Assembly (NCBI GenBank): GCA_009692615.1
Contig: SHYW01000016.1
Span: 1 to 58,789 of the forward strand
Source: Deltaproteobacteria bacterium
GTDB taxonomy: Bacteria; Desulfobacterota; Binatia; UBA9968
Length of the DNA stretch: 58,789 nucleotides
Direction of reading: 5' to 3'
The first letter of the stretch is position 1, and every line of letters begins with the position of its first letter. The notes beneath the pieces were generated by a model. It saw nothing but the letters and a program-made list of their open reading frames with translations. It was not told the origin of the DNA and did not search any database. Below are positions 1-47,633 of the stretch, one piece after another. The translations under genes and the position numbers were made by a program.

Positions 1-140
1 CATAAAGCTCCACTGTGAACATCCTTCCAGCCTCCCGATGCCATTCAATAACATCGAGACAGCCTACAGGACCGGTACACTTTTGACCCGCCATTTTCTG
101 CCAGATCTTTGCCGGTTCAGTGGTACACTTTACGCCCGCG
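1..140. mobile_element. Probable insertion-sequence terminal region (partial)
   Basis: The first 140 bases are not chemotaxis sequence. They hold two spaced copies of a short motif, GGTACACTTTT followed by GACCCGCC at 74-92 and GGTACACTTTACGCCCGCG at 122-140, about 48 bases apart. Repeated short units near an end are typical of IS21-type elements. The cheA frame loses its family signature exactly where this sequence begins. No transposase gene is in the window, so the rest of the element would lie to the left. An assembly chimera could look the same. Confidence 0.5.
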
Positions 141-1079
141 ATTTATAACTTCAATGACGATGCTGCCGCCTTCGTGGCGCGCCTGGAGCTTTAATACGCC
201 GCAGGGATTTTTGCCGCGAGCTTGCCGCGCCTGCGGCGTTTCGATGCCGTGATCCAGGGCGTTTCGGATCATGTGCGTGAGCGGGTCTTTTAGGTGCTCG
301 ATGATGCTCATGTCGACTTCGACGTCGTCGCCCTGGGTTTCCAAACGCACGAGTTTCTTTTCGCCCTGCGCCAGGTCGCGGACCTTGCGCAGGTACTGGC
401 GGAACGTCGGCCCCACCGGCACCATGCGCACGCGCATGATTTGTTCTTGCAGTTCTAGGGACAGACGCTCGACTTGGTCATGGGCTTCGAGGGCTTCGCT
501 GGTGCTCTGGCCGCGCGCCGTCAGCGTTTGGCGCAAACGGCCCTGGGCGATGGCGATTTCGCCGGCGAGATTGAGCATGCGATTGAGCTTTTCGGTATCG
601 ACGCGGATGGTTGTGGCGTAATCGACGACGGCGTCGGCGACGGCGCCGCGCTTAGTTGGAACCGGCGCGGGATTCGGATTCTCCATCGGCTCAGCGGCGT
701 CGCCGTCGGTCAGTTGTTGCTGGAGCTTTACATGCTCGGGCTTTACTTCCTCGGCGCCGGCCACTTCCGCGGCAATCATTTCGCGCAGCGCGTCCAACGA
801 GCGCAGCAATAGGGTGATGCGCTGCGAGGTCACCGGGATGGAATGATTGCGAAAACGTTGTAACAGATCCTCGAAAGCATGAGCGAAGCCGGCGACTTTG
901 GGAAAGCCCAAACTACCGGCGTTGCCCTTGATGGTATGCGCGCCGCGAAAGATCGCTTCTAAAAAACCGTCGTTGTGAGGATCGGCTTCCAAGGTGACCA
1001 GGGCTTCTTCCATGGCGGCGAGGCGCTCGTCGCATTCGGCGATGTAGGTTTTGAGAATCGCTTCGAAGTCGATTTCCAT
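117..1079 (-). CDS. cheA: Chemotaxis histidine kinase CheA, 3'-truncated
   Basis: CheA receives signals from chemoreceptors and phosphorylates CheY and CheB. The 320-residue product starts with an Hpt (P1) domain whose phospho-accepting histidine is H48 in AHTIKG. A P3-like dimerisation helix pair follows at about 155-220, then the start of the ATPase domain with the N-box (IRNALDHGIE). CheA proteins normally run well past 600 residues; here the frame departs at about base 140, just where the DDGRGL-type G1 box should appear, and ends in RGRKVYH. The remaining ATPase domain and the CheW-like domain are missing, apparently because of the adjacent IS-like end. It is last in a minus-strand run after a response regulator and cheD (10-base gap). 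Without the full ATPase domain it cannot be an active kinase. Confidence 0.88.
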   Translation of the reverse strand: MEIDFEAILKTYIAECDERLAAMEEALVTLEADPHNDGFLEAIFRGAHTIKGNAGSLGFPKVAGFAHAFEDLLQRFRNHSIPVTSQRITLLLRSLDALREMIAAEVAGAEEVKPEHVKLQQQLTDGDAAEPMENPNPAPVPTKRGAVADAVVDYATTIRVDTEKLNRMLNLAGEIAIAQGRLRQTLTARGQSTSEALEAHDQVERLSLELQEQIMRVRMVPVGPTFRQYLRKVRDLAQGEKKLVRLETQGDDVEVDMSIIEHLKDPLTHMIRNALDHGIETPQARQARGKNPCGVLKLQARHEGGSIVIEVINRGRKVYH

Positions 1080-1089
1080 GTCTTAGGCC

Positions 1090-1605
1090 CTATAACCGCT
1101 TCACCCACGCCGAACCGTCGTCGGTGTGGAAAATTAATTTACGGCCTTTGTCGCCGCCAATATCTTGGCCGATGACCGGGATATCTTCGCGCTCGAGGAT
1201 TTTTTCGGCGGTCTGGACATTTTCCCAGCCGAGGTGGGTGGCGCGGTTGCGAAACGCGGCGATCACACAGGCGCCGCCGAAGAGCTTCGCTTGCAGATCC
1301 CGTTTGCGGCAGCCGAGCGCCGTCAGTTGTTCGATCAGTTCGGCGATGGCGACGTTGCCAAAGCGCGGCGAAGCGACGCCGTCGCCGGTGAAAGCCGGTA
1401 GCAGATAGTGGTTGATGCCGCCGATCTTTTTCACCGCGTCCCACAGGCAGACCGCGACGCAGGAGCCGAGAATGGTCGTCACGGCATGGCTTTGGCGCGA
1501 GGCAAACAGCTGCCCCGGATGGAGATAAAGTTTTTCATGGGCGGCGTTCTTGACCTCAAGAACGGCCTCGCTCTGGTTTGGGTTTGGCTTTGCCGCTGAA
1601 TGCAT
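1090..1605 (-). CDS. cheD: Chemoreceptor glutamine deamidase CheD
   Basis: CheD deamidates specific glutamines of methyl-accepting chemoreceptors and in some species docks on CheC. The 171-residue product has the family hallmarks: the catalytic cysteine C49 in ILGSCVAV, the catalytic histidine H66 in GGINHYLLP, and the conserved FGG segment. Length matches the family. It lies between the response regulator and cheA on the same strand with short gaps, so the three are probably co-transcribed. The first 20 or so residues are poorly conserved and a later start is possible. It is intact although cheA next to it is not. Confidence 0.92.
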   Translation of the reverse strand: MHSAAKPNPNQSEAVLEVKNAAHEKLYLHPGQLFASRQSHAVTTILGSCVAVCLWDAVKKIGGINHYLLPAFTGDGVASPRFGNVAIAELIEQLTALGCRKRDLQAKLFGGACVIAAFRNRATHLGWENVQTAEKILEREDIPVIGQDIGGDKGRKLIFHTDDGSAWVKRL

Positions 1606-1624
1606 CGCTACACAATTTCTAATT

Positions 1625-1996
1625 TCAATCGCCGAGCAGGTTTCTTACCTTGGTGATGAGCTCCAGACTGTCGATCGGTTTAATGACGTAATCGTTGCAG
1701 CCGCTCTCGTAGCCGCATTCCATCGCGGTGGCTTCCGATTTGGTGGTCACCATGACGATCGGCACCTCGCGGGTCAGGGCATTTTCCCGCAGCCGTTTCA
1801 CGGCGGCGAAACCGTCCATCTTGGGCATCACGACGTCCATCAGGATCAGATCGGGTAGGGTGGCCAACGCCTTCGCTACGCCTTCTTCGCCATCCCGGGC
1901 GATCATCAGCTCGTAGCTATCGCGCTGGAGAATCATTTGCTCCATTTGCAAAATGGTTTCGGAATTGTCGACCAGCAGGATTTTTCGCGATGCCAC
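1625..1996 (-). CDS. Single-domain response regulator (CheY-like)
   Basis: A receiver domain with no output domain, 123 residues. The phospho-acceptor is D54 in LILMDVVMP, the acidic pocket is D10 with N11 in place of the more usual second aspartate, T84/T85 form the switch position and K106 precedes the cis-proline. I chose the GTG at 1996 rather than the upstream ATG at 2077, because an AAGGA motif sits the right distance upstream of the GTG and the receiver fold begins immediately after it. It heads the run regulator-cheD-cheA, so it is probably the CheY-type output protein of this pathway. Confidence 0.85.
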   Translation of the reverse strand: MASRKILLVDNSETILQMEQMILQRDSYELMIARDGEEGVAKALATLPDLILMDVVMPKMDGFAAVKRLRENALTREVPIVMVTTKSEATAMECGYESGCNDYVIKPIDSLELITKVRNLLGD

Positions 1997-2576
1997 AGGT
2001 TTGAATCCTTTCTTCTGGTTTGCCCGTCCGTGCGACGCGTCAATTATCGCAGCTTGCTGCCGTCGGCCCGGACTCAAATGGATTTACTCAAAGCAAGACA
2101 CCGGCCATTCGTAATCATTTAGAAACTGCCAATACATTCCGAAAAATTGACAAATCGCGTCGGCCGTTCACAAATTTGTGCAGAAAACCCTAGAAAGTTG
2201 ACCGAGAGCGAACGAACGGAGGGCGTGAGCGCTGAAGCAAATTTTTGGGGTTCAAGCGCCGATAAGAATTTAATCGCCAGTAGTTTTTCTCTTTGTTCTC
2301 AATCGCTGCTCAAACGTCGCGAGTGAAAAATTCGTTTGCGGCGGCCGATGATGACGCATCATTACCAAGAGTGGAGCGTTCCCACCTTTAACTGTCCAAC
2401 CCTGTTCAATAAGGGCCATAACTGACCAATCGGTGCGCTGAGGTTTTTGCTAACGTTGGGTTTTCCTGCAAGTTTGTCTAGCCGACAAGATGGCACATAA
2501 TTGGCTTTACATGGTGGAGTTAATATCTTGTCTGGCGCGAAACTTCGGCCGAGTTTGAAACCAAGGAGTGATTGCA
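1997..2576. other. Divergent intergenic region
   Basis: This 580-base stretch separates the minus-strand chemotaxis genes from the plus-strand coiled-coil gene. I see no convincing gene; a 78-codon minus-strand frame inside it lacks a ribosome site and any recognisable family. It holds the candidate sigma-54 promoter at 2491-2506 and a small inverted repeat TTGTC-N5-GACAA just before it (about 2474-2488). Confidence 0.5.
2491..2506 (+). promoter_or_regulatory. Candidate sigma-54 promoter (-24/-12)
   Basis: TGGCACATAATTGGCT has a perfect -24 element (TGGCAC), the obligatory GG-N10-GC spacing, and TGGCT where the -12 consensus is TTGCW, one mismatch. It lies about 70 bases before the coiled-coil gene and in the same direction. 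Sigma-54 commonly drives motility and pilus genes, which suits the context. No activator site was identified. Confidence 0.5.
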
Positions 2577-4501: not shown

Positions 4502-5185
4502 ATGAGCGGTAAACGAATTCCCACCGGCATTCCCGAGCTCGACGCGCTGCTTGAAGGCGGCCTGCGGGAAGGCAAAACCTATCTTGTGGTGGGACAGCCC
4601 GGCACTGGCAAGTTGGTCTTCAGCTTGCAGTTTCTCGTCCGCGGCTTGCTCGAAAAAGAAAAATGTCTGTACGTCGCCATCGACGAGAAACCCGCCGATG
4701 TCATCGAGCAGGCGACTTCGCTGGGGTGGGATTTGGCGCCGTTCATCGAGTCCAAAGAGTTTCTCATTCTCGATGCCTCAGCCTATTTCGGCGGGCGCGC
4801 CGGCGATCCCGCCAAGGGCGTCGACGTGCAGCAGGTGGCCGCCGATCTCAATAATTATATCGTGCGCATGGGCGCGGTCCGAGTGGTGATCGATCCGGTG
4901 GGGCCGCTGCTGTCGGCGCGCAACTCGGAGCAGGCGCGGCTGTTGATCTACGCGCTCCAGGCGAACACCAACACGACCCATTTGCTCACGACTTACGCCG
5001 CCGAAAAGCCGCCGCGCGGCGTGGAAGAATATTTAGTCGCGGGAACCATCGTCCTGGAAATGAATCGAGTCGAAGGCCGCTATCAACGCAAATTGACCAT
5101 TGAAAAAATGCGCGCCACGGCGTTGGAACCGGCGCAGTACGACTTCAACATCGTCGCCGACCGCGGCATCGTGTTCAAAACCTAA
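4502..5185 (+). CDS. KaiC-like RecA-superfamily ATPase with altered Walker A
   Basis: A single KaiC-type domain of 227 residues. The opening RIPTGIPELDALLEGGL is the classic KaiC/RadA-like start. The P-loop is GQPGTGKL (31-38): the lysine K37 is present but the following Ser/Thr that helps bind magnesium is Leu38. An acidic pair D61/E62 sits where KaiC has its catalytic glutamates, and the Walker B aspartate is D131 in VRVVIDPVG. Two-domain KaiC is about twice this length, so this belongs with the stand-alone KaiC-like proteins that act in signalling or motility assemblies. It follows the coiled-coil gene on the same strand. Hydrolysis may be weak or lost; nucleotide binding may remain. Confidence 0.82.
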   Translation: MSGKRIPTGIPELDALLEGGLREGKTYLVVGQPGTGKLVFSLQFLVRGLLEKEKCLYVAIDEKPADVIEQATSLGWDLAPFIESKEFLILDASAYFGGRAGDPAKGVDVQQVAADLNNYIVRMGAVRVVIDPVGPLLSARNSEQARLLIYALQANTNTTHLLTTYAAEKPPRGVEEYLVAGTIVLEMNRVEGRYQRKLTIEKMRATALEPAQYDFNIVADRGIVFKT

Positions 5186-39999: not shown

Positions 40000-40791
40000 A
40001 TGACTCCATTTCATTTTGTCGCATTTGTTTTCGGCGCTCTGGTCGGCAGTTTTCTCAACGTTTGCATCGGCCGGATTCCCAACGGCGAGTCCATCGTCAC
40101 ACCGGGTTCGCACTGTCCCGGCTGCAAAAAACCCATCGCTTTTTACGATAATGTGCCGCTGCTCAGCTACTTGTTTCTGCGCGGCCGCTGCCGTGCCTGT
40201 CATGAAGGTATTTCACTGCGCTATTTTGTTGTCGAGTTGCTGATGGCGCTGTTCGCCATGGCGCTCTGGCACTGGTTTGGTTTGAGCTTTAGCTTTTTTG
40301 TCGGCTTTGTCTTTGTCGCCGCGCTGATCGTGATTTCTTTTATCGATCTCGACGTGCGCATTGTGCCCGACGTGATCAGTCTGCCGGGAATTATCCTCGG
40401 GTTGGTTTTCTCGTTGTTGGGATACTTTTTCTTTCGCGATGGTTCGGGTGTGATTCCCTCGCCGGTCAGTTCGCTGATCGGGATTCTTACCGGCGGGGTT
40501 TTTTTGCTCGTGACGGCATGGGCCTATGAGAAAGTTACCGGCGTCGACGGCATGGGCGGCGGTGACATCAAACTGCTGGCGATGATCGGCGCCTTTCTCG
40601 GTTGGCCGTCGATTCCGGTAACTCTCTTCATCGCGTCGTTGCTCGGTTCCGTAGTTGGCATCGCCTGCATGGCGGTCACCGGCGCCGGCCGGCGCTTGGC
40701 GTTGCCGTTCGCGCCGTTTCTCTGTTCCGGCGCGCTGCTCTATCTTTATTACGGCAACGAGATCATCGAGTTTTATCTCCCTCCCCAGTGA
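40000..40791 (+). CDS. pilD: Prepilin peptidase/N-methyltransferase PilD (A24)
   Basis: A 263-residue inner-membrane aspartic protease that cleaves and N-methylates type IV prepilins. Four zinc cysteines C39, C42, C64 and C67 lie in the cytoplasmic loop. One catalytic aspartate is in FIDLD (D116/D118) and the other is D189 in MGGGDIKLLAM. About eight membrane segments are present. It lies just ahead of the minor-pilin genes it would process, although separated from them by 210 bases and a candidate promoter. Confidence 0.95.
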   Translation: MTPFHFVAFVFGALVGSFLNVCIGRIPNGESIVTPGSHCPGCKKPIAFYDNVPLLSYLFLRGRCRACHEGISLRYFVVELLMALFAMALWHWFGLSFSFFVGFVFVAALIVISFIDLDVRIVPDVISLPGIILGLVFSLLGYFFFRDGSGVIPSPVSSLIGILTGGVFLLVTAWAYEKVTGVDGMGGGDIKLLAMIGAFLGWPSIPVTLFIASLLGSVVGIACMAVTGAGRRLALPFAPFLCSGALLYLYYGNEIIEFYLPPQ

Positions 40792-40935: not shown

Positions 40936-40951
40936 TGGTCCGCGAATTGCT
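40936..40951 (+). promoter_or_regulatory. Candidate sigma-54 promoter of the first minor-pilin cassette
   Basis: TGGTCCGCGAATTGCT: the -12 TTGCT is perfect, the GG-N10-GC spacing is exact and the -24 matches five of seven positions. It lies 51 bases before the first pilin gene. PilS/PilR-type sigma-54 control of pilin genes is well known. No activator site was identified. Confidence 0.5.
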
Positions 40952-41002
40952 CTCTCCAGCAGAGGTTATCCTTAGTTCTCAATGGTCGGTGGAGCGGTTT
41001 AG

Positions 41003-41449
41003 ATGGCATTGATGGCAAAATTACCACGACGACTCACCAATGGCCGCGGCTTTACGCTGGCGGAGATGCTCGTTGCTGTGGGAATCTTCGGGATTCTCTC
41101 GGCCACCGCCGCGCCCTACTTGTTCGCCATGAAAACCCGTTTTCGCTTGGACGGCGCCACGCGCCAGGTGTTCAGCGAAATCATGTCGGCGCGCATGAAA
41201 GCGATCAACGAGAACGCCACCTACACGATCACGTTTCCGAACAACCACACGATTCAGATTGTCGGCTCGGCCACCAGAACGGTCGATCTGCAAACGCTCT
41301 ACGAGAGCGTGACACTTTCGAGTTCCGCGGCGACGATCAATATTTCCTCGCGCGGTACTTCGGATACCGCTTCGACGATCACGGTTTCCAATTCTACCGG
41401 AAGCAAAACCGTAACGCTTAAAATCACTGGATCGGCGTTGATTAGTTGA
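41003..41449 (+). CDS. fimT: Minor pilin, FimT/GspH type
   Basis: A 148-residue prepilin. PilD would cut GRG|FTLAEMLVAV, leaving a mature protein with Phe1 and Glu5 and the usual hydrophobic helix. The C-terminal domain is small and rich in Ser/Thr (TISSRGTSDTAS-like stretches), as in FimT/GspH. It is the first of the four-gene cassette. A second in-frame ATG at 41012 may be the real start. Minor pilins form the tip complex that starts pilus assembly; FimT also binds DNA in some species. Confidence 0.85.
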   Translation: MALMAKLPRRLTNGRGFTLAEMLVAVGIFGILSATAAPYLFAMKTRFRLDGATRQVFSEIMSARMKAINENATYTITFPNNHTIQIVGSATRTVDLQTLYESVTLSSSAATINISSRGTSDTASTITVSNSTGSKTVTLKITGSALIS

Positions 41450-41460
41450 GGCTCGATGAC

Positions 41461-41865
41461 ATGAAAGCGAAAATTTTACACCGAGCTTTGAGCGAAAAGG
41501 GCTTCACCCTGATCGAGCTGCTGACAGCGATTACGTTGTTAACGATTGGGCTTTTGGGGACGGCGGCACTGACGGCGGGCGTGGTGAAGGGCAATGTCGC
41601 TGGGCGAAACGTTTCCACTGCCACGGCGATCGCTCAATCGTGTTTTCAGGAAAATCGGCGAGTGGGATATACCAGTGCCGGAACCACCGGATGTACGACC
41701 ACCACCACCAACGTTACATTGGGCGGTGTGACATTCTCTCGCGCTCTGTCCATCGATTCGGCTACCACCAACTTGAAAACTCTTACCGTGACGGTCAGCT
41801 GGACCGAAGGCACGGCGGGCAGTAAGTCGATTACGATGATGACGACACTCGCATCGGGGACTTGA
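41461..41865 (+). CDS. pilV: Minor pilin, PilV type
   Basis: A 134-residue prepilin with cleavage at EKG|FTLIELLTAITLL. The mature part is short, with a Cys pair (C-x-N-type CFQENRR and GTTGCTT) that may bridge. I prefer ATG 41461 (MKAKIL) to the upstream TTG 41446. It overlaps pilW by four bases or less, so the cassette is tightly coupled. Confidence 0.82.
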   Translation: MKAKILHRALSEKGFTLIELLTAITLLTIGLLGTAALTAGVVKGNVAGRNVSTATAIAQSCFQENRRVGYTSAGTTGCTTTTTNVTLGGVTFSRALSIDSATTNLKTLTVTVSWTEGTAGSKSITMMTTLASGT

Positions 41866-41870
41866 TAGAT

Positions 41871-42476
41871 ATGCACCGCCGAGTCAATAAAACTTCAGCC
41901 GGTTTCACGCTCATCGAGATGATGGTTTCCATCACCCTCGGGATGATCGTCATTGCCGGCGTCACGGGGACGTTTACCGCCCAAACTCGGCAGAACGCCG
42001 CCGAACAGCAGGTGTCGCAGATGCATCAGAACGTGCGCGGTGCGCTCGATATGATTATGCGGGATCTGATGCAGGCTGGCTACAAAGCTCCTAGTGGCAG
42101 TGTGACGGGTGTGACGTACAGCACCACCCAACTACTGGTTCAGGCTGATCTCGATGCGAATGGGAGCATAGATACGACTAACACGAGCGTGGAATACATC
42201 ACTTACGTTTATGATTCGACGAATCAGCAAATCACGCGGAAGCTTGGGAATAGTGGAAATAGCACCACGGAAGTTCTCGCCGAGAACATTACCGCATGCA
42301 CTTTCACTTTCAAGGATGCAAGTGATACTGCGACTACAACCAGCTCCCTGATCCGCAAACTGAGCATAACGATCACTGGTCAAACGGCAAAGGTCGATCC
42401 AAGTTATTCTTCAAATAACGGTAAGCGTTCTTACTCGGTCAGCGCCGACGTTACGCCGCCGAATTTGGCTCTTTAA
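41871..42476 (+). CDS. pilW: Minor pilin, PilW type
   Basis: A 201-residue prepilin with cleavage at SAG|FTLIEMMVSITLG. The next part, QMHQNVRGALDMIMRDLMQAGY, is the typical PilW helix extension (MxRDLxxAGY), followed by a Thr/Ser-rich beta domain. I use ATG 41871, after the pilV stop. It lies between pilV and a PilX-like gene. Confidence 0.85.
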   Translation: MHRRVNKTSAGFTLIEMMVSITLGMIVIAGVTGTFTAQTRQNAAEQQVSQMHQNVRGALDMIMRDLMQAGYKAPSGSVTGVTYSTTQLLVQADLDANGSIDTTNTSVEYITYVYDSTNQQITRKLGNSGNSTTEVLAENITACTFTFKDASDTATTTSSLIRKLSITITGQTAKVDPSYSSNNGKRSYSVSADVTPPNLAL

Positions 42477-42493
42477 TTAGGGAGACAGATTTT

Positions 42494-43684
42494 ATGCAGT
42501 CCACGCGAAAAATTTTCAATTGGTTTGTGAACAAAGTCTGCGGCGGTGAGCAGGGCGTGATTCTGATCGCGGTGCTTACGTTGATGGTGACGCTGATCCT
42601 GGTCGGCGCGACGACGTATATCGTGTCGTCGAGCAACGTTAAGATTAGCGCCAACTTCAAATCGAGCGAAACCGCTTTGCAGGTGGCGATGGCGGGTGCC
42701 GAAAAGGCCCGTGAAACATTGCGGGCGCTTAACGTGGCTAGCTCGGACAAAACCGTGTTCAGTACCGAGCTTGCTGGGCGTGTTGGCGGCAATAGCGTCC
42801 TCAACGGTAATGCTACGGCCACAGATGATTTGGTTTTGGCGACCGGTACATTAGGAAGCTATACTTACAACGCCTATTTGACTAACAACAACGTTAGCGG
42901 TGGCGATACATGGAACAGTATAACTGACAACGACGGCATCGCGACGATCACTACTACGGCGACCGGTCCAAACGGCTCAAAAGCTGTGGTCACGACTCTT
43001 GTAAAAACGTACACCATACCCAGCGCACCCGGTGCGGTTTACTCAAAAGATAATGTTATCTTGAACGGCAGTTCGTTAACCATCAACGGCAACGACGCCT
43101 CGGGCTGCGGTGGAACGAATCAGCCTCCGGTTTACACGGAGAATCCAGCGTACACGTGTTATCCAGGCACGACCGAACCCAGGTGCGGCAATGTCAACAA
43201 CGCCAACGGCCCCACTTTGACCGGCAGTCCAAACGTGCCGCAGTACGGTACCATTGACATAGATATCAGTACGCTGGTCACTGAGCTTAGCAAATCCGCG
43301 ACCGATAAAGTTACGGCAGATCAAACCAACGCGACATTTGGCTCGGCCAGTGATTATCGGATCGTTTACGCCGATGCCAGCGCTCTGAACAATCAAGATC
43401 TTCGACTGAATAACGTTACCGGCTACGGCATTTTGGTGGTGCTTGGCAATTTGCAACTGGCGGGTAACCTCACGTGGAACGGACCGATTATCGTGACCGG
43501 CACTGTGACTTCGAGCGGCGGCGGTAGTAGCCCCAAAAACGTTACCGGTCAAATTATTGCGGGTAGTAGCGCGCTGGGCGACACCACTATCAGCGGCAGC
43601 ATCGTGGTCAATTACAGCAGTTGCGCCCTACGCGACGCGTATGCGGTGGCTCCTCTAAGAGTCGTTAACTGGAAGCAAAATTAA
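42494..43684 (+). CDS. PilX-like large minor pilin
   Basis: A 396-residue protein with an N-terminal pilin-like helix EQGVILIAVLTLMVTLI (no acidic residue at the usual +5) and then SSETALQVAMAGAEKAR, typical of PilX. Its large Asn/Ser/Thr-rich C-terminal part contains GYGILVVLGNLQLAGNLTWN, a motif shared with the PilX-like gene at 45911. This is probably an extracellular beta-rich tip domain. A good AGGGAG-type site precedes ATG 42494. It ends the first cassette and its stop overlaps the stop of a convergent gene. Confidence 0.8.
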   Translation: MQSTRKIFNWFVNKVCGGEQGVILIAVLTLMVTLILVGATTYIVSSSNVKISANFKSSETALQVAMAGAEKARETLRALNVASSDKTVFSTELAGRVGGNSVLNGNATATDDLVLATGTLGSYTYNAYLTNNNVSGGDTWNSITDNDGIATITTTATGPNGSKAVVTTLVKTYTIPSAPGAVYSKDNVILNGSSLTINGNDASGCGGTNQPPVYTENPAYTCYPGTTEPRCGNVNNANGPTLTGSPNVPQYGTIDIDISTLVTELSKSATDKVTADQTNATFGSASDYRIVYADASALNNQDLRLNNVTGYGILVVLGNLQLAGNLTWNGPIIVTGTVTSSGGGSSPKNVTGQIIAGSSALGDTTISGSIVVNYSSCALRDAYAVAPLRVVNWKQN

Positions 43685-44238
43685 CGTTGGTTTTGCAGCG
43701 CCGAATCAACCGCGGCGCCCATCTGTTGGAGATCGTTAAACTCGCGGCCGCGCTCGATAAAGAGTTTGGGATCTTTTTGTATCTTGGTTTTGTAGTCGAA
43801 GAGTTCCTTTGACAGCGCGCGAAGATCGTCCGGGAACATGCCGGCGACATTGTCCACTCTATCTTTTAGGCGTGCGACGTCTTTTTTGATCGGATCGTTC
43901 TCGTCTTTCACCGGCGCTGGAGCCTCGGTGGCGGGTGTTTCTTGCGCCGGTTCTTTATTGTTCTCGTCAGCAATCACCTGGGTTTTTTCCGACGGATCGT
44001 GATCGGCTGTCGTCACCATCTTAATCACTTTGTCCGTCTTCTCGATCTTGTGCACAAACGCTTTGTCGACACCGAATATCCCGCCGTCGGCGTCGAACAA
44101 GACTTGCGCGCCCTCTTGCCAGTAGCGGTTGGTGACATATTCGTTGCCGTTCTTGAGCCTGATGACGAAGGCGCCATTGGCGAGGGTCGGCGCGGTGAGG
44201 CACAGAGTTAACGCAAGATAGCTGACAGTTTTTCGCAT
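43681..44238 (-). CDS. Hypothetical exported protein
   Basis: A 185-residue protein with a signal peptide (about 1-22, ending LANGA). A small beta domain follows (FVIRLKNGNEYVTNRYWQEG, VLFDADGGIFGVDKAFV), then an acidic linker rich in Glu and Pro (about 95-125), then a helical C-terminal part. No family is recognised. It is inverted between two pilin cassettes. Convergent overlap with the PilX-like gene (4 bases) means their mRNA 3' ends could pair. Confidence 0.7.
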   Translation of the reverse strand: MRKTVSYLALTLCLTAPTLANGAFVIRLKNGNEYVTNRYWQEGAQVLFDADGGIFGVDKAFVHKIEKTDKVIKMVTTADHDPSEKTQVIADENNKEPAQETPATEAPAPVKDENDPIKKDVARLKDRVDNVAGMFPDDLRALSKELFDYKTKIQKDPKLFIERGREFNDLQQMGAAVDSALQNQR

Positions 44239-44331
44239 ACTCGACTCCCATCCCAGAACATTTGCATTTTACCATCACTTGGCGTGGCCGCCAAAGTTTT
44301 CTTTGACAAGTAGAGCAGGTTTTTTCACCCC

Positions 44332-44361
44332 TTGACACTGGATTTGCGCCGGAAGTATGGT
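44332..44361 (+). promoter_or_regulatory. Candidate sigma-70 promoter of the second pilin cassette
   Basis: TTGACA, an 18-base spacer and TATGGT, with a GGAGGGG ribosome site and ATG at 44384. The -35 is perfect and the -10 fair. It differs from the sigma-54-like sequence before the first cassette, so the two cassettes may be expressed under different conditions. Confidence 0.4.
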
Positions 44362-44383
44362 CCCAACATCTTTGGAGGGGACC

Positions 44384-44833
44384 ATGTGTCGCACCACCAC
44401 TAGGGATGGCTTCTCGACTATTGAGCTGCTTGCCGGCATGGCGGTTATGGGAATCATTGCCGCCATCGCACTGCCCAACTGGCGTGCGCTGTTTCCTAGT
44501 TTCGCTCTCAACAACTCAACCCGGCAGATTCAGTCCGAAATGCATCACCTCAAGATGCGCGCGGCGGCTGAGAATATTGGCTTTCAGTTGGCGTATCTTC
44601 AAGGCGCTAGCGGCTACACGATCCAACGCGATAGCAAGGCGCTGGTGACCAAGCCGTTGGCTGAGGGAACGACCATCACGAAGACCGGAACGATTTCCTT
44701 TACACCACGAGGAACGGCCGACAACGATCGGGTGCGACTGAGCAATGCCGAAGGGAAGTGCCGGCAAATCGTTGTCAGCGGGACAGGTAGAGTGCGAGTT
44801 TGCACGCCCAACAACTGCGCTCAGAATTGCTAA
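44384..44833 (+). CDS. Minor pilin, FimT/GspH type (second cassette)
   Basis: A 149-residue prepilin with cleavage at RDG|FSTIELLAGMAVMG. The mature domain (FALNNSTRQIQSEMHHLK, then ISFTPRGTADNDRV) and a C-terminal Cys cluster (RVCTPNNCAQNC) fit a FimT/GspH-like pilin. It starts a second copy of the four-gene minor-pilin order. The start is ATG 44384, which has a strong ribosome site, not 44357. Confidence 0.85.
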   Translation: MCRTTTRDGFSTIELLAGMAVMGIIAAIALPNWRALFPSFALNNSTRQIQSEMHHLKMRAAAENIGFQLAYLQGASGYTIQRDSKALVTKPLAEGTTITKTGTISFTPRGTADNDRVRLSNAEGKCRQIVVSGTGRVRVCTPNNCAQNC

Positions 44834-44835
44834 TC

Positions 44836-45246
44836 ATGACCGTTCACAGAAATATCATCCGACATCAAACGGGTTTTACGTTTAACGAATTGCTGGTTGC
44901 CATGAATATCGTTGCCGTGGCCGTGTTGGGATATTCGCTGAGCAGCGCCGATGCCATTCGTCGTCAAACGATTAACGGCAACTCGACGGCGGCCATTCAC
45001 CTGGCGCAGGACAAGATCGAAGAATTGCAAGCGCGCAAAAATTTGACGGACGGCGATCTTTGTCCCGGCGGCGGCGATCGCGGTCTAGCAGCGAACGGCG
45101 GCACGCCGGGGATTTACGATCGCTGCTGGCGCATCGCCGCATCGGCTCTCGGAACCAAGCTTAAGCAGATCGACGTGACGGTGTCGTGGCGCGATCATGT
45201 CGATCATCAAGTGACTCTCTCTACGTTGCTCTTTACCGGTGAGTGA
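44836..45246 (+). CDS. Minor pilin, PilV type (second cassette)
   Basis: A 136-residue prepilin with cleavage at QTG|FTFNELLVAMNIVAV: Glu5 is present, preceded by Asn. The later AIHLAQDKIEELQARKNL helix and the CPGGGDRGLAANGGTPGIYDRCW loop, with a possible Cys bridge, fit PilV. It starts 3 bases after the previous stop. Confidence 0.8.
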   Translation: MTVHRNIIRHQTGFTFNELLVAMNIVAVAVLGYSLSSADAIRRQTINGNSTAAIHLAQDKIEELQARKNLTDGDLCPGGGDRGLAANGGTPGIYDRCWRIAASALGTKLKQIDVTVSWRDHVDHQVTLSTLLFTGE

Positions 45247-45899
45247 GCGTGATGCAACGATTTGACAATCACTGCGGTGCAACTTTGATCGAACAAATGG
45301 TCGCGTTGTTACTAGGGTCGGTGATGATCACTTCTCTGTATGGCTATTTTCGTAGCAGTCTCTATCAGTTGCTCTCGATCGAGACGAAGACCGCCACCTT
45401 GGAGGATGCGCGCGGCGCATTGGATATCATGCTGCGCGATCTCAAAAACGCCGGTTCGTGGGAGAGCGGCAGCGCGCCGGCCGAAATTGGCGGCGCGGAT
45501 GATCCAGATAACGACGCCGACGCTGTTTGCAATCGAGTTTACGCAGCGACGGCGAGCATGATCCACGTCCAGATGAGTCTTAATGATAACAACAACTGCG
45601 CCGACATCGATCCGCGCGAGAATATTCGCTACGAGCTAACCGGACCGACATCAACTTGCCCCGGCACGAACATCATTCGACGCAACGGAGATTGCCTGGT
45701 TGCTAACGTCGTTCTCCCAGTGGCCGGGAAGCTATTTACTTACTTTGACGCTGACGGCACGGATCTAGGCAACACGCCAGCGCGCGATTCGATCAAGCGC
45801 GTCAGGATTGCCTTTGCCGTTCAAGTCAAGAATCCCGACCCACGACTCAACGGCAACCTGGCCTCGACGCTGTCGAGCAGCGTTGAATTGCGCAATTAG
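45243..45899 (+). CDS. Minor pilin, PilW type (second cassette)
   Basis: A 218-residue prepilin-like protein with a processing site HCG|ATLIEQMVALLLGSV: Ala rather than Phe at +1, Glu at +5. It then has EDARGALDIMLRDLKNAGSW, the PilW MLRDLxxAG signature. GTG 45243 overlaps the preceding stop (GTGA); ATG 45252 is possible. It is followed 11 bases later by the PilX-like gene. Confidence 0.82.
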   Translation: MSVMQRFDNHCGATLIEQMVALLLGSVMITSLYGYFRSSLYQLLSIETKTATLEDARGALDIMLRDLKNAGSWESGSAPAEIGGADDPDNDADAVCNRVYAATASMIHVQMSLNDNNNCADIDPRENIRYELTGPTSTCPGTNIIRRNGDCLVANVVLPVAGKLFTYFDADGTDLGNTPARDSIKRVRIAFAVQVKNPDPRLNGNLASTLSSSVELRN

Positions 45900-45910
45900 C
45901 GAGTATTTTC

Positions 45911-47077
45911 ATGATTACCAACATAGATCGGCTGCGCAGCGAGCAGGGAATGATTCTCTTCAGTTGCTTGGCGATTCTTTCGATCCTGTTGATGGTCGGC
46001 ATCGGTAGCCGGGTGATGTTGTACAACGATTATCGAGTGTTGACGAACCTGCGCGGCGGTACGGAAGCCTTTTACGTTTCAGCGGCTGGATTGGAGTGGA
46101 GCAAAAATACACTTGCCCAGATCGCGATCTTTCCGCCGGCGCCGGTCAACGGGACGGCAAGCTTTGCCAATGGGCAATTTTCGATTTCGTTTTTTCCGCC
46201 CACGGTCGCCGGTTCGCTCAGCGCCAAGATCGTCGTTCGTTCGGTGGGCACGCTCGGAACCTCTTCACAGACGATTCAAGCGCAGCTGACGAAAAGCTAC
46301 GATCTCGCCGACGCTGCCATCGGTCTTAGGGGCAATGGCGCCCAAGTGATTCTCAACGGCGCCGCGATAGCCGTTTCCGGTCTGGATCACGATCCGCTAA
46401 CTGGATTACCAATCGCCAAGGCGAAAGCACGGCCAGCGATTTCCGCCGGGGATCAATCTCTCCAAGAGTTAGTGACCGCGGCTTCAAGTAGTTTGCCTCC
46501 TGGTAGCCTGGAAAGCGGCGGCGAAATTTCACCAGTCGCGGCCAGCGAATATCTACCCGCTTCATCGGTCAGCCAGCTTGCCAACGATCTATGCGCGCTG
46601 GACGGTGCAATCGTCAGCAGCATGCCGACGACCGGTGCGTTAACTATCGAAAACCAAAGCTGGGGAAATCTCGCCAGTCCGCAGATTCGCTGCATCAACG
46701 GTTTGTCCGACTCAGGCGACGCGGTCACCTTGGCGGGAGACCTAACTGGCGCCGGGGTGCTGATCGTCCGAAATGCCGACCTGCTGCTCACCGGATCGCT
46801 TCGCTGGGATGGTTTGATTATCGTCACGGGCAACGATGTCGGCCTGAAGGTGACCGGCTCTAGCGCCAAAGAGATCTATGGCGGAGTCATCGTTAACGAA
46901 GCCGGGACTCCCAGCAGCAAAACTATTCTCGACATTCAAGGCAGCCTGCGGCTCCGCTTTAGCCGGTCGGCATTAGTCCAAGCGGCGCAGGCGATCCCGG
47001 CGACCACGTTCACTAACCTCTACGCAGCCCTGCCCTTTCAGGTCAGCCAAGACTACTGGCGCACGGTTTCACCCTAA
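45911..47077 (+). CDS. PilX-like large minor pilin (second cassette)
   Basis: A 388-residue protein with an N-terminal pilin-like helix (EQGMILFSCLAILSILLM) and AFYVSAAGLEWSKN after it. Its C-terminal region repeats the GAGVLIVRNADLLLTGSLRW motif seen in the first cassette's PilX-like protein, so the two are paralogues. The rest of the sequence has diverged strongly. It ends the second cassette. Confidence 0.8.
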   Translation: MITNIDRLRSEQGMILFSCLAILSILLMVGIGSRVMLYNDYRVLTNLRGGTEAFYVSAAGLEWSKNTLAQIAIFPPAPVNGTASFANGQFSISFFPPTVAGSLSAKIVVRSVGTLGTSSQTIQAQLTKSYDLADAAIGLRGNGAQVILNGAAIAVSGLDHDPLTGLPIAKAKARPAISAGDQSLQELVTAASSSLPPGSLESGGEISPVAASEYLPASSVSQLANDLCALDGAIVSSMPTTGALTIENQSWGNLASPQIRCINGLSDSGDAVTLAGDLTGAGVLIVRNADLLLTGSLRWDGLIIVTGNDVGLKVTGSSAKEIYGGVIVNEAGTPSSKTILDIQGSLRLRFSRSALVQAAQAIPATTFTNLYAALPFQVSQDYWRTVSP

Positions 47078-47246
47078 CAATTGCGAGCAAATCTCAATTT
47101 ACATTGGGGTCGTAAGGTGGTAAATGCCTAAACTACAACGATTTGACCATCCCAATAGCTAAATTTTGTAGACCCCAGGTCGATGCTATAAATAGCGTCG
47201 GTATATTGGGTTGATCGATCACGACGTGGTGCGAGAGGGAGAGAGC

Positions 47247-47633
47247 ATGGATACAAAGAAGACCATAATGGTGGTTGACGACAACCCGGACATAATCACG
47301 ATCGTCAAAACCATTCTGGAAGGGCGGGGATACACCGTCTTTAGCGCTTCGAGCGGTCCCGAGCTGCTGAGCATTCTACCGAATCACAAGCCCGATCTGA
47401 TTATCTTGGATATCATGATGCCCGAGATGGACGGCCTCGAAGTGTTGACCCGGCTCAAAGCCAAGACCGAAACCGCCACCACGCCGGTTATCTTGCTCAC
47501 CGCCAAAGTGCAGTATGAGGACGTGCTCGGCGGCTACAAACTTGGCGCCGACTATTATATTACCAAACCTTTCACCAGCACCCAGCTGGTCAATGGCATC
47601 AATCTGCTGCTCGGCGAAGGTAAGCCGCAATAG
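47247..47633 (+). CDS. Single-domain response regulator
   Basis: A 128-residue receiver domain: acidic pocket D11/D12, phospho-acceptor D55 in LIILDIMMPEMDG, T85, and K107 in YITKPFT. It has no output domain. I use ATG 47247 (GGGAGAG upstream) rather than the frame start at 47211. It follows the pilin cassettes by 169 bases. PilG/PilH-type regulators control pilus extension, so a role in twitching is possible, but no kinase is adjacent. Confidence 0.88.
   Translation: MDTKKTIMVVDDNPDIITIVKTILEGRGYTVFSASSGPELLSILPNHKPDLIILDIMMPEMDGLEVLTRLKAKTETATTPVILLTAKVQYEDVLGGYKLGADYYITKPFTSTQLVNGINLLLGEGKPQ

Follow-up and report, generated by a model that had tools for sequence, protein, structure and literature searches.

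A prepilin peptidase gene followed by two minor-pilin cassettes with predicted ComZ-like capping pilins in an uncultured member of the Binatia

Introduction

How one type IV pilus machine does both DNA uptake and adhesion or motility is a debated question. Myxococcus xanthus possesses three minor-pilin clusters (FimU-PilV-PilW-PilX-PilY1) on one machine, two of which are sufficient alone (PMC7541494). The model for a solenoid tip is ComZ of Thermus, which has been proposed as a DNA receptor at the pilus tip (PMC6561018). DNA-uptake FimTs carry a C-terminal GRxR motif, which FimU lacks or possesses only in part; this motif is required for DNA binding by Legionella FimT (PMC8897410), and in Vibrio cholerae for transformation as well as DNA binding (PMC12040237). 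Here we analyse a locus in which the gene order FimT-PilV-PilW-PilX is found twice behind a prepilin peptidase gene. It lies in a stretch of 58,789 nucleotides from a deltaproteobacterial assembly (GCA_009692615.1, contig SHYW01000016.1; GTDB class Binatia), in the following called the window, which forms contig C16 in a genome bin (G000) of 5.05 Mb and 186 contigs with a completeness rated 98.7 %.

We consider it rather probable that, besides the prepilin peptidase, this locus encodes two complete tip-priming complexes which serve one type IV pilus machine. A more detailed version, which we put forward tentatively, is that of one machine with two exchangeable tips, found across an uncultured family of the Binatia: one tip for adhesion/motility, which is controlled by sigma-54 and PilR and produced along with PilA, and one for DNA uptake, which does not depend on sigma-54. 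A ComZ-like solenoid capping pilin would stand at the head of both, instead of PilY1.

Organization and conservation of the cassettes

Cassette 1 (41003-43684) and cassette 2 (44384-47077) follow directly downstream of the prepilin peptidase gene and both have the order FimT/GspH, PilV, PilW and PilX. Inside each cassette the intergenic distance is 2-17 nt, which is operon-like, and all eight open reading frames (ORFs) are intact, several gene starts being slightly off from the mechanical ORF starts. Matches to the N_methyl profile are clear for the pilins of cassette 1 and weak or below threshold for those of cassette 2. The initial annotation had described the two cassettes with an inverted exported-protein gene between them, and this arrangement is borne out by the ORFs, the Pfam families and the synteny in relatives.

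The order PilD - cassette 1 - inverted gene - cassette 2 - response regulator - tmk - holB - metG - tatD recurs in the same-family genomes G008, G012 and G014 and partly in G003. Because of this synteny the tandem order is far beyond chance. In G020 cassette 1 is placed on a different contig. In G010 and G017 cassette 2 directly follows PilD with no cassette 1 there, and in G002 cassette 2 alone remains; cassette 1 is therefore the dispensable one, and across the relatives cassette 2 is lost less often. In G001, which belongs to the same genus and is rated 99 % complete, pilB-pilC-pilA are present and PilD, PilX1 and PilX2 (the PilX proteins of cassettes 1 and 2) were not found. A divergent variant, "p1", occupies the first place in G007, G009, G024 and others. 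Several of these have additional PilX genes, and often two or three PilX-type genes stand there in tandem (L067 of G009, L074 of G024, L121, L079). In G009, moreover, cassette 2 has two FimT genes, and a further PilX-type gene and one for a T2SSE-type ATPase lie between this cassette and the response regulator.

A phylogeny of the pilins, proposed along with the first description, places the cassettes in separate clades. In the maximum likelihood tree of concatenated FimT, PilV and PilW sequences the cassette-2 clade has a support of 87 and the p1 clade one of 99, the support of the cassette-1 clade is 100 without G012 and 71 with it, and the pseudopilins of type II secretion systems (T2SS) branch apart. 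Since the clades are separate and the cassettes syntenic in relatives, the cassettes are, judged from their sequences, ancient paralogues inherited side by side. A recent duplication or an assembly artefact is ruled out by the synteny in independent bins together with the tree.

Against the nearest relatives, the ratio of nonsynonymous to synonymous differences (pN/pS) ranges from 0.35 to 0.42 in cassette 1 and from 0.19 to 0.39 in cassette 2; tmk has 0.23 and metG 0.12. Although these values are rough, with synonymous sites close to saturation, they argue for purifying selection on both cassettes. Pseudogenisation of one cassette in relatives, which the initial annotation had named as a refutation of two pilus tips, was not found, but cassette 1 is missing in the three genomes mentioned above (G002, G010, G017). 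An apparent break in PilX1 of G003 turned out to be a stretch of N letters within the contig and no lesion.

FimT motif and promoters

The GRxR motif is present in 13 of 13 cassette-2 FimTs and in none of the 16 other FimTs, which comprise those of cassette 1, of p1 and outlying ones (Fisher P 1.5e-8). Both arginines are invariant in the cassette-2 FimTs, whose alignment columns are on average 65 % identical, and the other FimTs have GNVK, GRVN, GRVT and similar residues at this place. As the motif is confined to the FimTs of cassette 2, its distribution suggests that cassette 2 encodes a DNA-binding tip and cassette 1 a FimU-like tip.

The promoters divide in the same manner. Searching the 250 bp before the FimT pilin motif, we found a TGG-type sigma-54 site with at least 8/12 consensus bases in all 14 position-1 cassettes (cassette 1 and p1) and with at least 9/12 in 12 of them (background 5 %). 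None of the 14 cassette-2 genes reaches at least 9/12. Sites as good as the one before cassette 1 of the window, TGGTCCGCGAATTGCT, are expected 2.7 times per strand of the window by chance, and it is the recurrence across relatives which argues against a chance match. The comparison across relatives thus supports the different promoter classes claimed for the two cassettes. The window's genome encodes rpoN (PF04552 E 4.4e-64, contig C108). In five relatives a sigma-54-like site (9-10/12) also precedes pilA in a pilB-pilC-hybrid PilS/PilR-pilA locus. Because cassette 1 and pilA are both preceded by such sites and cassette 2 is not, the first two probably form one sigma-54 regulon, with cassette 2 outside.

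It could be argued that the two tips are functionally equivalent and that the duplication provides for dosage or for expression in differing conditions, DNA uptake and adhesion not being divided between the two. Both cassettes have the same gene content and the same predicted PilX architecture, and in Myxococcus cluster 1 and cluster 3 each suffice for motility (PMC7541494). However, GRxR and promoter class are split perfectly between the cassette types, which are deeply divergent and yet conserved within each type, so that we regard equivalent tips as unlikely, albeit worth serious consideration.

PilX proteins and the ComZ-like fold

The residue E5 of the mature protein is present in FimT, PilV and PilW of both cassettes (GFTLAE, GFTLIE and GFTLIE; GFSTIE, GFTFNE and GATLIE). 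It is absent from both PilX proteins (GVILIA in cassette 1, GMILFS in cassette 2), and a missing E5 is the mark of a capping pilin (PMC12040237). The PilX proteins of the window show no direct match to any Pfam model, including PilX_N; this model (PF14341) is matched by five of the ten members of the PilX1 alignment and by six of ten for PilX2. PilX1 and PilX2 are homologous along their whole length (hhalign 99.9 %, E 2.8e-36). The initial annotation had noticed a shared GxGVLxVxxxLxLxGxLxW motif; in the form GxG[VI]L it occurs in 19 of 20 aligned PilX proteins, and the longer motif represents one rung of a predicted beta-solenoid.

AlphaFold2 models built from the ten-sequence alignments have a predicted local distance difference test (pLDDT) score of 83 for PilX2 and 74 for PilX1. 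In both models the pilin fold, with its long N-terminal helix and its sheet, carries a beta-solenoid as an insertion. In a Foldseek search against the PDB, ComZ of Thermus thermophilus (6qvi) was the sole match below E 0.001 for both proteins (PilX2 1.3e-6, PilX1 4.7e-5). The superposition of ComZ on the models is loose overall (low TM score, root-mean-square deviation 14-17 Å), presumably owing to a different arrangement of the two domains. VIA-align gave Z values of 10.9 and 9.2 to ComZ with 9-19 % identity in the structural alignment. A PDB sequence search with PilX returned nothing useful; the likeness to ComZ came from the fold search. We regard both PilX proteins as predicted ComZ-like capping pilins with an inserted beta-solenoid.

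VIA-align also places the PilX solenoid on the ice-binding (DUF3494) fold (Z 13-14), and the authors of the ComZ study noted the same resemblance for the solenoid of ComZ (PMC6561018). An ice-binding function of PilX was set aside, because the ComZ solenoid gives the same match to ice-binding proteins.

PilY1 (PF05567) had no match in 29 genomes, the control genomes being silent as well, and there is no PilY1-sized gene beside either cassette. The fold-match lists of PilX contain no PilY1-type beta-propeller, which does not exclude one.

The pilus machine

In addition to pilD, the bin holds pilMNOPQ (C39) and three other PilA-like pilins. A search for major pilin partners, suggested with the two-tip idea, succeeded in the relatives, five of which have a pilB-pilC-pilSR-pilA locus; in the window's bin it brought up only the solitary PilA-like pilins. 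These are encoded at C8:19778, C68:8232 and C93:14256 (L060-L062), far from other pilus genes. A sigma-54-like site lies 57 bp upstream of the one on C8. G001, G004, G005, G007 and G008 each have one motor/major-pilin locus of this type, and a separate T2SS locus is found in G001, G004 and G008. One such locus per relative (n = 5), next to two complete, conserved and intact sets under purifying selection, each with an E5-less capping pilin, and to the different promoter classes, supports the two pilus tips proposed initially.

Cassette 2 could instead be part of another apparatus with its own motor, either a competence pilus or a T2SS-like pseudopilus, as the T2SSE-type ATPase gene of G009 (L067:7283-9055), situated between cassette 2 and the response regulator, and the presence of more than two PilC/GspF loci in some genomes might indicate. 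We hold this to be improbable, because in most relatives cassette 2 has no motor gene next to it, and because relatives possess a distinct T2SS cluster that includes GspE/GspF and pseudopilins of its own and lies apart in the tree. For the same reasons, T2SS clusters with GspE/F elsewhere in relatives and the separate branch in the tree, we rejected the type II secretion pseudopilins GspHIJK as an identity of the cassette proteins.

Proposed model

From the observed gene order, homology, intactness, ancient paralogy and the split in promoter and motif, together with the predicted fold, we infer the position at the tip, a machine shared by both sets in this genome, DNA binding and alternate use as follows. 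In each cassette FimT(U), PilV and PilW would join beneath the capping pilin PilX, and PilX itself would be the exposed tip head, as proposed for ComZ. The PilX-capped priming complex would start the PilA filament and stay at its tip, the PilX solenoid offering the contact surface. Both cassettes probably use one machine (PilMNOPQ, PilB, PilC, PilA). Cassette 1 would be transcribed from a sigma-54 promoter like the pilA genes of the relatives, probably under the PilS/PilR-like activator which those relatives encode between pilC and pilA. It most likely provides an adhesion/motility tip, its FimU-like subunit being without the DNA-binding motif. Cassette 2, sigma-54-independent and with a FimT that keeps GRxR, most likely provides a tip which binds DNA, either for competence or as extracellular DNA.

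Several points weigh against this model. The split in GRxR represents one old event kept in two clades and not 29 independent ones. The confidence of the PilX1 model is only middling. The soluble parts of both PilX proteins are acidic (isoelectric point 4.8-4.9), and therefore PilX need not bind DNA. No gene of the bin scores above cut-off for PilB/PilT/GspE (PF00437) or PilC/GspF (PF00482). In the relatives the gene order is recO-ppdK-pilB-pilC-pilSR-pilA, and contig C42 (end 38450) stops 199 bp past ppdK, where pilB starts in relatives; the absence of pilB, pilC and pilT is therefore probably an assembly gap. The neighbourhood of pilT is ambiguous, as contig C89 starts 324 bp before the flanking gene with no visible pilT. 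A true loss of the pilus motor was judged unlikely, given the end of the ppdK contig and the presence of pilMNOPQ. That the cassettes are relics after such a loss, decaying or in a motor-less role, would agree with the missing motor genes in a bin of this completeness, but is less probable still than a separate competence pilus or secretion-like system, because all ORFs are intact and under purifying selection, pilMNOPQ is present, the contig ends at the expected start of pilB, and a PF00437 gene above cut-off is found in 37 of the 39 genomes searched, the exceptions being this bin and G030.

Features of the locus and neighbouring genes

The coordinates of the features are listed in Table 1. 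Downstream of PilX2 the window continues with the response regulator, tmk, holB, metG and tatD. The CheY-like response regulator is 75-94 % identical across relatives and conserved far better than the pilins. Close to pilMNOPQ the bin encodes a protein similar to ExpP, the exported protein from between the cassettes (L127:1106-1810, G000:C39; 25 % identity, E 8e-6). The two share a domain with the pattern LKNG...GG, which has no Pfam equivalent, and are possibly envelope proteins associated with the pilus. The start of the window (117-2077, 4502-5185) contains genes for a CheA fragment with Hpt and H-kinase dimer domains, for CheD, for a CheY-like protein and for a KaiC-like ATPase, possibly a chemosensory system.

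Table 1. Features of the pilin locus in the window.
Feature	Position	Strand	Evidence and remarks
PilD prepilin peptidase (A24_N_bact + Peptidase_A24)	40000-40791	+	Pfam E 4e-34 and 4e-22; directly upstream of cassette 1
Putative sigma-54 -24/-12 promoter of cassette 1, TGGTCCGCGAATTGCT, GG-N10-GC	40936-40951	+	10/12 consensus bases
Cassette 1 FimT/GspH-family minor pilin, FimU-like	41003-41449	+	PF12019 E 3.7e-7, N_methyl; TGSALI in place of GRxR
Cassette 1 PilV-like minor pilin (GFTLIE)	41461-41865	+	N_methyl; TIGR02523 type_IV_pilV E 7.7e-6, below its cut-off
Cassette 1 PilW-like minor pilin (GFTLIE)	41871-42476	+	N_methyl E 4e-8; homologues in relatives
Cassette 1 PilX-like capping pilin, inserted beta-solenoid (ComZ-like, predicted), no E5	42494-43684	+	AlphaFold2 model, Foldseek; PilX_N in relatives
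ExpP, exported protein between cassettes	43681-44238	-	Convergent with PilX1, stops overlap; kept between cassettes in relatives
Sigma-70-like candidate promoter of cassette 2, TTGACA-18-TATGGT	44332-44361	+	10/12 match
Cassette 2 FimT with C-terminal GRVR (GRxR motif)	44384-44833	+	PF12019 E 1.4e-5
Cassette 2 PilV/GspI-like minor pilin (GFTFNE)	44836-45246	+	Weak N_methyl, gspI and pilV matches; same-place orthologues 34-75 % identical
Cassette 2 PilW-like minor pilin (GATLIE)	45252-45899	+	48-79 % identity to orthologues in alignment
Cassette 2 PilX-like capping pilin, inserted beta-solenoid (ComZ-like, predicted), no E5	45911-47077	+	AlphaFold2 model, Foldseek; PilX_N in relatives
Single-domain response regulator	47244-47633	+	PF00072 E 1.3e-32; after PilX2 in nearly all relatives

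Comparison with known systems

The Myxococcus clusters and Thermus ComZ can be seen as precedents already known. The novelty lies in what is combined here: two whole cassettes that differ in sigma factor and in the FimT DNA motif, a solenoid PilX and no PilY1 found. The two jobs of the pilus thus seem to be divided between tip cassettes which can be distinguished by sequence alone (GRxR, promoter class), which opens the way to a direct genetic test. The ComZ-type solenoid tip, described in Thermus, would be extended to a distant lineage in which PilY1 is undetected, suggesting that beta-solenoid capping pilins can stand in for PilY1 more widely.

With clusters 1-3 of Myxococcus xanthus the locus shares several complete tip-priming sets for one major pilin and machine; in Myxococcus these sets accumulate unequally (PMC7541494). 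Each Myxococcus set includes a PilY1 adhesin, whereas none was found by either cassette here and PilX has a predicted beta-solenoid instead. The likeness to ComZ of Thermus thermophilus with PilA1-PilA2-PilA3 consists in three pilin genes adjoining a pilin with an inserted beta-solenoid (PMC6561018). However, Thermus has one set, known for competence, while two sets are present here and their PilX proteins are shorter than ComZ. As for the FimT and FimU proteins of gammaproteobacteria (PMC8897410) and the competence tip of Vibrio cholerae (PMC12040237), the FimT with GRxR binds DNA there and FimU is without the full motif, which resembles the difference between our two cassettes. There, FimT and FimU are single subunits, and FimT is often an orphan gene; in the present locus each of the two types is accompanied by a PilV, PilW, PilX and promoter of its own.

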